Shown here in pieces: positions 15,143-17,278 of a stretch of DNA of 64,000 bases. This stretch comes from Actinomycetota bacterium. GTDB taxonomy: Bacteria; Actinomycetota; Actinomycetes; Nanopelagicales; Nanopelagicaceae. Position numbers and translations under genes: made by a program. The notes below the pieces were generated by a model. The model ran no database searches. It worked only from the letters and a program-made list of their open reading frames with translations, and had not been told where the DNA came from. Positions within the stretch are counted from its first letter, which is position 1, and each line of letters opens with the position of its first letter. Location of the stretch: the NCBI GenBank assembly GCA_005800815.1, contig SYEK01000036.1, positions 1 through 64,000 of the forward strand, given 5' to 3'.

Positions 15143-16582
15143 ATGCGGCGAGCCAAGATTGTATGCACCATGGGCCCTGCAGTTGAATCAGAGCATAAAG
15201 TCAAGGAGCTCATCGATGCTGGGATGAATATGGCGCGCCTCAATCTCTCACATGGGACATATGCCGAGCACCAAGTGCGCTTTGATCAGGTGCGAGCTGG
15301 CGCTAAAGCGGCAGGACGTCCTATTGCGATACTAGTCGACCTACAGGGGCCGAAGATTCGCCTCGCCCGCTTTCTTGCCGGTCCTCATGAACTCTCCCGT
15401 GGAGATATCTTCACAATCACAACTGATGAGATCGAAGGGACGAAGGAACGAGTCGGAACGACCTACAAGGGACTGCCTGGAGATTGTAAAGTTGGGGATC
15501 ACATACTCATCGATGACGGGAAAGTCACTGTTCAAGTCACTCAGGTAATTGGCAATGATGTTATTACCAGAGTCATCGAATCTGGGATGGTGAGTAATAA
15601 TAAAGGAATCAATCTGCCAGGTATAGCCGTCTCTGTGCCTGCTATGTCAGAAAAGGATGTTGAGGACCTTCGTTGGGCTCTACGCACTGGCGCTGATTTC
15701 ATCGCACTCTCCTTTGTGCGGGATGCAGCTGATGTCAAAGATGTTCATAAGATTATGGATGAAGAGGGTGTTCGAATCCCAGTGATTGCCAAGATTGAAA
15801 AACCACAGGCCGTAACAAATATCAAGGAAATCATCGAGGTGTTTGATGGCATCATGGTCGCACGGGGCGATCTTGGGGTGGAGCTTCCTATTGAAGATGT
15901 GCCATTGGTGCAAAAACTCTGTGTCGAACTCGCGCGTGACATGGCCAAACCCGTCATTGTCGCAACACAGATGCTAGATTCGATGATCACTAACTCTCGG
16001 CCGACACGCGCTGAGGCCACAGATTGCGCTAATGCTGTCCTAGATGGCGCAGATGCCCTGATGCTCTCGGGTGAGACGAGCGTGGGTGAGTTTGCCATCG
16101 AATCGGTGCAGACAATGGCACGAATTATTCAAAAGACGGAGGAGGGTGGACTTGATCGGATTCGTCCAATCAAGACAGCCCCACGCACCAAGGGTGGTGC
16201 TATCACAAAGGCCGCCACTGAGGTTGGAGCGATTGTTGATGCCAAATACTTGGTCGCCTTTACACAAAGTGGTGATTCTGCCCGCCGCATGTCGCGCTTG
16301 CGCTCACCGATTCCCATTCTTGCGATGACTCCAGAGGTCGGTACTTTCAATCGACTAGCACTCTCGTGGGGAGTTGAATCAATGTTGACTCCGATTGTTG
16401 GAGCAACCGATGAGATGGTGAAACTTGTCGACTCAGTCTTAATCGATTCAGGGCGCGCTCTCATTGGGGATAATGTGATGATTGTTGCCGGCTCTCCTCC
16501 AGGGATCCCCGGCTCCACTAATGCAATGCGTGTTCACCGCGTGGGAGATGCCGTTGGTGGGGTCGCTCCTGCCTACCGCTAA
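15143..16582 (+). CDS. pyk: Pyruvate kinase
   Basis: Converts phosphoenolpyruvate and ADP to pyruvate and ATP, the last glycolytic step. 479 residues with RRAKIVCTMGPA at the N-terminus, MARLNLSHGTY, VDLQGPKIRLA, the active-site block IPVIAKIEKPQAVTN and MVARGDLGVELP, and VATQMLDSM. The C-terminal regulatory domain is complete. ATG at 15143 matches the usual start and has no Shine-Dalgarno, in line with a leaderless mRNA. gltB-gltD-pyk is a familiar actinobacterial order. Confidence 0.97.
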   Translation: MRRAKIVCTMGPAVESEHKVKELIDAGMNMARLNLSHGTYAEHQVRFDQVRAGAKAAGRPIAILVDLQGPKIRLARFLAGPHELSRGDIFTITTDEIEGTKERVGTTYKGLPGDCKVGDHILIDDGKVTVQVTQVIGNDVITRVIESGMVSNNKGINLPGIAVSVPAMSEKDVEDLRWALRTGADFIALSFVRDAADVKDVHKIMDEEGVRIPVIAKIEKPQAVTNIKEIIEVFDGIMVARGDLGVELPIEDVPLVQKLCVELARDMAKPVIVATQMLDSMITNSRPTRAEATDCANAVLDGADALMLSGETSVGEFAIESVQTMARIIQKTEEGGLDRIRPIKTAPRTKGGAITKAATEVGAIVDAKYLVAFTQSGDSARRMSRLRSPIPILAMTPEVGTFNRLALSWGVESMLTPIVGATDEMVKLVDSVLIDSGRALIGDNVMIVAGSPPGIPGSTNAMRVHRVGDAVGGVAPAYR

Positions 16583-16595
16583 GATTTAGCGTATC

Positions 16596-16668
16596 GCCTC
16601 GGTACTCCAACGGTAGAGAGGGCAGTCTCAAACACTGCATAGTGTCGGTTCGAATCCGACTCGGGGCA
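16596..16668 (+). tRNA. tRNA with CAA anticodon (Leu-like), class I shape
   Basis: A 73-base cloverleaf can be drawn by hand: acceptor 16596-16602 with 16661-16667 (two G-U pairs), discriminator A16668; D arm around AACGGTAG; anticodon stem GCAGT/ACTGC closing a seven-base loop CTCAAAC (anticodon CAA, 16629-16631); variable loop of only five bases (16639-16643); T arm GTCGG-TTCGAAT-CCGAC. CCA is not encoded. CAA would read UUG leucine codons, but bacterial tRNA-Leu normally has a long variable arm, which is missing here. The gene starts 13 bases after pyk; TAAGAT at 16580-16585, using the pyk stop, is a possible -10. Confidence 0.8.
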
Positions 16669-16705: not shown

Positions 16706-17278
16706 GTGATTCGTATTCTCGTCGCTGAAGATGAGGCTCTCATTCGTATGGACTTGGTCGAGATGCTGCGCGATGCTGGCTATGAAGTAATCGCTGAGGC
16801 AAGTAATGGACAAGAGGCTATTGAATTGGCGAAGTTGCACAGGCCTGATATTGCAATTCTTGATGTCAAGATGCCGATATTAGATGGGATCTCAGCGGCT
16901 GAAAAAATTATTACCATAGCCCCAGTACTCATGCTCACTGCCTTCTCTCAGAGAGAGCTCGTTGATCGCGCCAGGGATGCTGGTGTCATGGCTTATGTCG
17001 TAAAACCCTTTACTATTAGCGACTTAGTTCCCGCAATTGAGATTGCAATCAGCAGGCATGTGCAGATGAAATCTCTGGCCGATGAGGTCTCTGATTTATA
17101 TGAGCGCCTGGAGACACGTAAATTGATCGATCGGGCTAAGGGAATTTTGATGAAGGCACTTAATCTCTCGGAGCCTGAAGCTTTCTCCTGGATCCAGCGC
17201 GCGGCCATGGATAGGCGTATGAGCATGAAGGCGATCGCACAGGCAGTCATCAATCCAGAGGCCGCACCCCATAAATAA
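16706..17278 (+). CDS. pdtaR: PdtaR-type response regulator with ANTAR RNA-binding domain
   Basis: 190 residues. N-terminal receiver domain with acidic pocket AEDE (about 7-10), phospho-acceptor Asp53 (ILDVKMP), the conserved Thr in MLTAF and Lys in VVKPF. C-terminal ANTAR domain about 125-185 (ETRKLIDRAKGILMKA...EAFSWIQRAAMDRRMSMKAIA). ANTAR proteins bind paired RNA hairpins to block termination. Mycobacterial PdtaR works with the kinase PdtaS, which is not in this window. Start is GTG at 16706 with AAAGGAA upstream. It is monocistronic, between the tRNA and the liv cluster. Confidence 0.93.
   Translation: MIRILVAEDEALIRMDLVEMLRDAGYEVIAEASNGQEAIELAKLHRPDIAILDVKMPILDGISAAEKIITIAPVLMLTAFSQRELVDRARDAGVMAYVVKPFTISDLVPAIEIAISRHVQMKSLADEVSDLYERLETRKLIDRAKGILMKALNLSEPEAFSWIQRAAMDRRMSMKAIAQAVINPEAAPHK

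Follow-up and report, generated by a model that had tools for sequence, protein, structure and literature searches.

A class I-shaped tRNA-Leu(CAA) without the long variable arm and its alternation with the class II form at one genomic site in Actinomycetes

According to a 2023 review of tRNA identity, tRNA-Leu keeps its long variable arm everywhere but in animal mitochondria (PMC9976931). The leucyl-tRNA synthetase (LeuRS) of Escherichia coli requires A73, the A15-U48 pair, G18G19 and A20a, with the anticodon and the long arm being dispensable, and tRNA-Leu variants without the long arm remain active (PMC9976931). Single cases of class I tRNA-Leu are already known, as database annotations and table entries. 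Table 1 of PMC9336784 gives leuV (Leu CAA) and leuX (Leu UAA) of Mycobacterium tuberculosis a length of 74 bp; the leuV transcript is a substrate of MiaA in vitro (PMC9336784), and only tRNA-Leu-2, -3 and -5 of this species are named as long-loop tRNAs (PMC11541572). Strains of the Mycobacterium mucogenicum clade have been reported to carry, in a mobile tRNA cluster, a tRNA-Leu(UAG) with a short variable loop (PMC6582537). Class I tRNA-Leu is absent from the list of a review of non-canonical tRNAs, and in the literature covered, which included few subscription journals, we found no account of it as a feature of Actinomycetes, of its exclusion of the class II form, or of a switch between the two at one site.

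The window analysed here, a stretch of 64,000 nucleotides from an actinobacterial contig, carries at 16596-16668 of the forward strand a class I-shaped tRNA-Leu(CAA) gene of 73 nt without encoded CCA; all parts described below lie on the same strand. Element by element, the full tRNA reads GCCUCGG UA CUC CAACGGUAGA GAG G GCAGU CUCAAAC ACUGC AUAGU GUCGG UUCGAAU CCGAC UCGGGGC A. The acceptor stem, with its 5' strand GCCUCGG at 16596-16602 and the partner strand at 16661-16667, retains seven of seven pairs in 86 of 86 relatives and includes two G-U pairs (U4-G69 and G7-U66). The D arm (16605-16620) is of the leucine type and combines a 3-bp stem, CUC/GAG, with the loop C13 A14 A15 C16 G18 G19 U20 A20a G21 A22, a pattern shared with class II tRNA-Leu. 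Three pairs are usual for the leucine D arm and recur in the class II tRNA-Leu encoded by the same genome; judged by this comparison, the short stem is no defect. The anticodon CAA (16629-16631), which reads UUG, is located in the loop CUCAAAC on a stem of five pairs (GCAGU/ACUGC), as given by the sequence, ARAGORN and Rfam. The variable loop AUAGU (16639-16643) has 5 nt and ends in U48, the partner of A15. It is followed by a T arm, GUCGG UUCGAAU CCGAC (16644-16660), with five perfect pairs supported by Rfam and covariation, and the discriminator is A73 (16668), which is kept in all leucine sets compared.

ARAGORN calls this gene tRNA-Leu(CAA) with its start at 16596, and the Rfam tRNA family RF00005 matches end to end over 16596-16668 with 52.1 bits, well over the gathering score of 29. 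The first-pass annotation, which had proposed such a gene-finder check, had described a 73-base cloverleaf with a five-pair anticodon stem, a CAA anticodon and a normal T arm, and both programs agree with it. Its further details (a variable loop of only five bases, three good D-stem pairs, two acceptor G-U pairs) hold as well, and its remark that the discriminator fits LeuRS is borne out by A73 in 86/86 class I CAA relatives. The variable region of 5 nt is shorter than the 10 nt or more of class II tRNAs, the acceptor and T stems of 7/5 bp differ from the 8/4 or 9/3 of allo-tRNAs, and the gene lies on a bacterial chromosome with pyk, gltBD and pdtaR nearby, outside the group of animal mitochondrial class I tRNA-Leu. 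On the minus strand, a weak match to the plastid ycf2 5' UTR family, at 20.7 bits far under the gathering score of 65.7, was rejected as a chance match over the tRNA complement. At position 38 (window 16633) the anticodon loop ends A36 A37 C38 and is without the A36A37A38 motif used by MiaA and TrmL; A37 may be unmodified or handled differently. Both C38 and A38 are found among class I CAA genes of Actinomycetes.

Because the single-sequence folding energy (z -1.6, unremarkable) is not decisive, support for the structure was sought in covariation across relatives. Among 86 distinct class I CAA sequences, 18 of the 20 stem pairs form in every one and the other two in 83, and changes on both sides were seen at 15 pairs, in up to 51 sequences at one pair. 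A variable loop of 5 nt and an unpaired C13-A22 are found in all 86. This pattern points to a structure that is under selection. By BLAST, the 73 bases are 96-100% identical in nearly all genomes of the same genus, which are about 1.3 Mb in size, with more distant matches in other families of the class; two loci of Candidatus Planktophila carry nearly the same tRNA. The occurrence of a short-loop tRNA-Leu(CAA) is confirmed, and the window tRNA is a conserved tRNA-Leu rather than a one-genome oddity.

The gene is located between pyk (pyruvate kinase, 15143-16582, forward strand; Pfam PF00224 and PF02887) and pdtaR (response regulator with ANTAR domain, 16706-17278, forward strand; PF00072 and PF03861), both of which are open reading frames on the same strand as the tRNA. 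It starts 13 bp past the pyk stop codon and ends 37 bp ahead of the GTG start of pdtaR. A consensus search of the pyk-pdtaR interval revealed no promoter or terminator around the tRNA, which together with the short distance makes co-transcription with pyk plausible. The same position between pyk and pdtaR was found in every same-genus locus with enough flanking sequence. Inspection of this site in other actinobacteria, likewise proposed in the first-pass annotation, showed that the gene is present there in either class I or class II form. In the window's lineage the tRNA shares the strand of its two neighbours, but in most other actinobacterial families it runs opposite to pyk and pdtaR, which means that the gene is inverted at one and the same site.

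In order to see which leucine tRNAs accompany it, the closed same-genus genome G014 (1,328,793 bp) was scanned for its complete tRNA set, since an Rfam search of the window's own genome listed 26 tRNAs, too few to prove absence. Four tRNA-Leu genes are present in G014: UAA and CAA are of class I with 5-nt variable loops, and GAG and UAG are of class II, where the variable region has 13-16 nt. The complete scan of this closed genome contained no class II CAA gene (the second copy that the first-pass annotation had recommended searching for), no class II UAA gene and no CAG gene. The window's own genome also carries a class I tRNA-Leu(UAA) (C16:43804-43876), with the 5-nt variable loop and leucine D arm of the CAA gene, directly downstream of an exopolyphosphatase-like gene, as well as a class II tRNA-Leu(UAG). 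In G014, UUG makes up 16% and UUA 24% of the leucine codons, and class I-shaped tRNAs would deliver about 40% of its leucine. The scan also yielded two extra tRNA-Val(GAC) calls on the minus strand (867446-867520 and 872820-872894), in which bases 1 and 72 form an A-U pair and the variable loop has 6 nt; both differ from the ordinary tRNA-Val(GAC) at 574587. Three low-quality tRNA-like calls with broken stems (1036066-1036139 Ala(UGC), 1070864-1070938 Gly(ACC) and 1126174-1126265 Thr(GGU)) are pseudogenes or unusual tRNAs.

The window tRNA contains A73, A14, A15-U48, G18G19 and A20a, the recognition set of E. coli LeuRS (PMC9976931). In our actinobacterial sets, all 86 class I CAA, all 13 class I UAA and all 20 class II leucine tRNAs have both A15-U48 and A73. 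The leucine D-arm pattern (3-bp stem, NAA..GG..AGA) occurred in 78, 13 and 15 of these, respectively, the D loop being slightly different in the other 8 class I CAA sequences, and in none of the 38 non-leucine tRNAs of G014. As part of the class I CAA set had been retrieved with a pattern that fixes U48, this base was rechecked on variants from a pattern leaving it free; of the distinct variants, 39 of the 41 for CAA and 40 of the 41 for UAA have it. Six genomes with class I genes only or with both kinds were tested, and each has a single LeuRS above the family cut-off; that of the window's own genome has catalytic, editing and anticodon-binding domains. Immediately upstream of its gene, leuS, lies a tRNA-Ala(GGC) (C34:48617-50453). 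The meaning of the codon was assessed on 15 window ORFs aligned with distant actinobacterial homologues at 35-75% identity. TTG stands opposite leucine in 65.0% of 1501 comparisons, a value with a mild bias from alignments that score TTG as leucine, though control codons behave alike; the values are 63.2% for TTA, 68.0% for CTG and 55.1% for CTC. Codons of other residues give a different picture, with 19.3% leucine for ATG. Read in this way, UUG still means leucine in the window's lineage.

We are highly confident, from comparative sequence data, that the window tRNA is a working, UUG-reading tRNA-Leu, charged by LeuRS without a long arm and belonging to a switching class I family. The ordinary single LeuRS would charge it with leucine by reading A73 and the hinge between D loop and T loop (A14, A15-U48, G18G19, A20a) and neither the arm nor the anticodon, which is why loss of the arm would be tolerated. 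Together with the class I tRNA-Leu(UAA) it would serve all UUR codons. The structure, its conservation, the recognition set, the lack of a class II CAA gene, the leucine at UUG, the presence of just one LeuRS and the use of one site by both forms were all computed directly. The first-pass annotation had offered three readings, and the data favor its unusual leucine isoacceptor, given the complete recognition set and the conservation of UUG as leucine, over its two others. Charging by another synthetase would place a different amino acid at UUG and amount to the reassignment of a sense codon. The class I shape is indeed unusual for leucine, and A37 and A73 are common bases that are not specific to it. 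However, leucine is conserved at UUG as well as at CUN positions, none of the 38 non-leucine tRNAs shares the full recognition set present here, and there is no class II tRNA-Leu(CAA) to maintain UUG as leucine, so that we consider reassignment very improbable.

The same three observations speak against the third reading, a non-standard tRNA-like RNA, here taken as a decayed or regulatory molecule outside translation, which we regard as hardly credible. The lack of a consensus promoter or terminator nearby would fit it, but with the gene 13 bp after the pyk stop co-transcription is possible; CCA is unencoded, but so it is in many other tRNAs of the lineage, including many in G014. The unremarkable folding energy is outweighed by near-invariance in the genus and strong covariation across the class, and in closed G014 this is the sole CAA tRNA.

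An exact pattern, run against 84,980 species genomes, gave at least 80 loci among the matches listed, and 80 of 80 of these have actinobacterial titles and fold as class I tRNA-Leu(CAA). One locus among them, titled Bifidobacterium breve, carries a Planktophila-type tRNA. For a survey across the class, 247 genomes were searched with patterns for two spacings with fixed bases, and clear false matches were removed by hand (those starting with CTCAAAG or CTTAAAT, or with off-size gaps). tRNA-Leu(CAA) was of class I in 133 genomes, of class II in 69 and of both kinds in none (Fisher p 6e-31), a mutual exclusion that is measured among detectable genes only, as 45 of the 247 match neither form. tRNA-Leu(UAA) behaves similarly, with 143 class I, 52 class II and no genome with both (p 1.6e-24). 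All four combinations occur (I/I 79, I/II 23, II/I 41, II/II 16), which indicates that CAA and UAA switch independently. In the window's family, 24 of 24 genomes are class I for CAA and UAA alike, and Streptomyces-like genomes combine a class II tRNA-Leu(UAA), which we take to be of the bldA type, with a CAA gene of class I or class II. In a set of 109 genomes from the phylum's other classes, the CAA gene is of class II in about 85 and of class I in 6. As class II is thus the commoner form outside the class, it is probably the ancestral state, and class I the derived one. The premise of the first-pass annotation that bacterial tRNA-Leu is class II is the textbook rule (PMC9976931) and fails in a large part of the Actinomycetes; the class I family contradicts the rule.

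Ten class II CAA loci were fetched for comparison, eight with pdtaR inside a 3-kb stretch and the other two with pyk. The two CAA forms alternate between species in five genera (g17, g19, g37, g40 and g44), and a sixth with both (g75) was known from earlier loci. Within these genera most of the genes are separated from pdtaR by 60-200 bp (by 92-419 bp in g40) and lie on the opposite strand. The anticodon loop and the T arm are often identical between forms of one genus, and other differences are linked: the class II acceptor begins GCCGG.. and goes with G9 and G/A13, the class I acceptor begins GCCCC.. and goes with A9 and C13. On a PdtaR tree of 137 loci there are at least 19 changes of form, and at least 7 if only branches supported at 95 or higher are considered. 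Neither count is a rate, as the genera were chosen for having both forms, the tree is a short one and pdtaR may move together with the tRNA. Uncultivated viral contigs, too, commonly carry class I tRNA-Leu(UAA) and (CAA) genes that show the same features, and class I tRNA-Leu is carried by isolated phages of Rhodococcus, Mycobacterium, Streptomyces, Pseudomonas, Acinetobacter and Prochlorococcus hosts. ARAGORN calls class I UAA genes in an Acinetobacter phage, a cyanophage and a Pseudomonas phage, and class I genes with CUN anticodons in an Acinetobacter phage (UAG), a mycobacteriophage (GAG) and a Bifidobacterium longum plasmid (AAG). If the phage tRNAs work, the LeuRS of several phyla would accept the class I shape.

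At the shared pyk-pdtaR site a class I gene takes the place of the class II tRNA-Leu(CAA); charging by LeuRS, expression and the route of this replacement we infer. As to origin only, each class I gene could have arisen when the resident class II gene lost its arm, separately in every case and with no foreign import. Both forms do share site and orientation, their anticodon loop and T arm are often the same within a genus, and class II prevails in the other classes of the phylum. Yet the forms differ beyond the arm, as linked sets (acceptor, positions 9 and 13), and phages carry related class I tRNA-Leu with the same set. Arm deletion is therefore rather unlikely in our opinion, and replacement by a ready-made class I gene fits better. 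We posit, tentatively and at somewhat below even chances, that a self-contained class I tRNA-Leu lineage common to phages and Actinomycetes has on repeated occasions supplanted the resident class II CAA (and UAA) genes in place, the architectures alternating within genera and one LeuRS serving both. Comparison by overall similarity within one genome failed to single out a parent tRNA for the class I leucine genes: these two are each other's nearest relatives, and the remaining tRNAs lie close together.

The function that we infer, delivery of leucine at UUG by way of LeuRS, would be ordinary, whereas the structure goes against a stated rule. In much of a major bacterial class the UUR tRNAs depart from the long-arm rule, in an essential single-copy gene, and the evolutionary interest lies in two architectures of an essential tRNA that replace each other in place. 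Charging, if confirmed, would be natural proof that a bacterial LeuRS needs no arm, as experiments with minimal RNAs have suggested. Since the forms alternate at one site within genera, they provide natural pairs for testing the purpose of the arm, candidate roles being the avoidance of serine or tyrosine charging, modification and decoding on the ribosome. Pipelines for tRNA annotation or tRNA sequencing that take a long leucine arm for granted will misjudge these genes.

Among known systems, an engineered minimal E. coli tRNA-Leu without the arm is, as summarized in the review, leucylated given A73 and the contacts between D and T loops (PMC9976931, ref. 53); it is artificial, whereas the window tRNA is natural. 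Animal mitochondrial tRNA-Leu(UUR) also has no long arm and takes its identity from A73 and A14 (PMC9976931), but is organellar, degenerate in structure and served by its own mitochondrial LeuRS. The tRNA-Leu(UAG) of the M. mucogenicum clade is bacterial and short-looped like the window tRNA, but it is accessory and part of a cluster, a normal class II copy being present elsewhere, and its anticodon is different. M. tuberculosis leuV and leuX fit the class I family in length and anticodons, PMC9336784 giving the lengths and no comment on shape. With the class II tRNA-Leu of bacteria (E. coli type) the window tRNA shares the anticodon family, A73, A14, A15-U48, G18G19 and A20a, the 3-bp D stem with 13-22 unpaired and the same LeuRS in these genomes, as well as the genomic site where other actinobacteria are concerned. 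It differs from this type in a variable region of 5 instead of 13-16 nt, in A9 and C13 instead of G9 and G/A13, and in the C-rich acceptor strand of the class I family.
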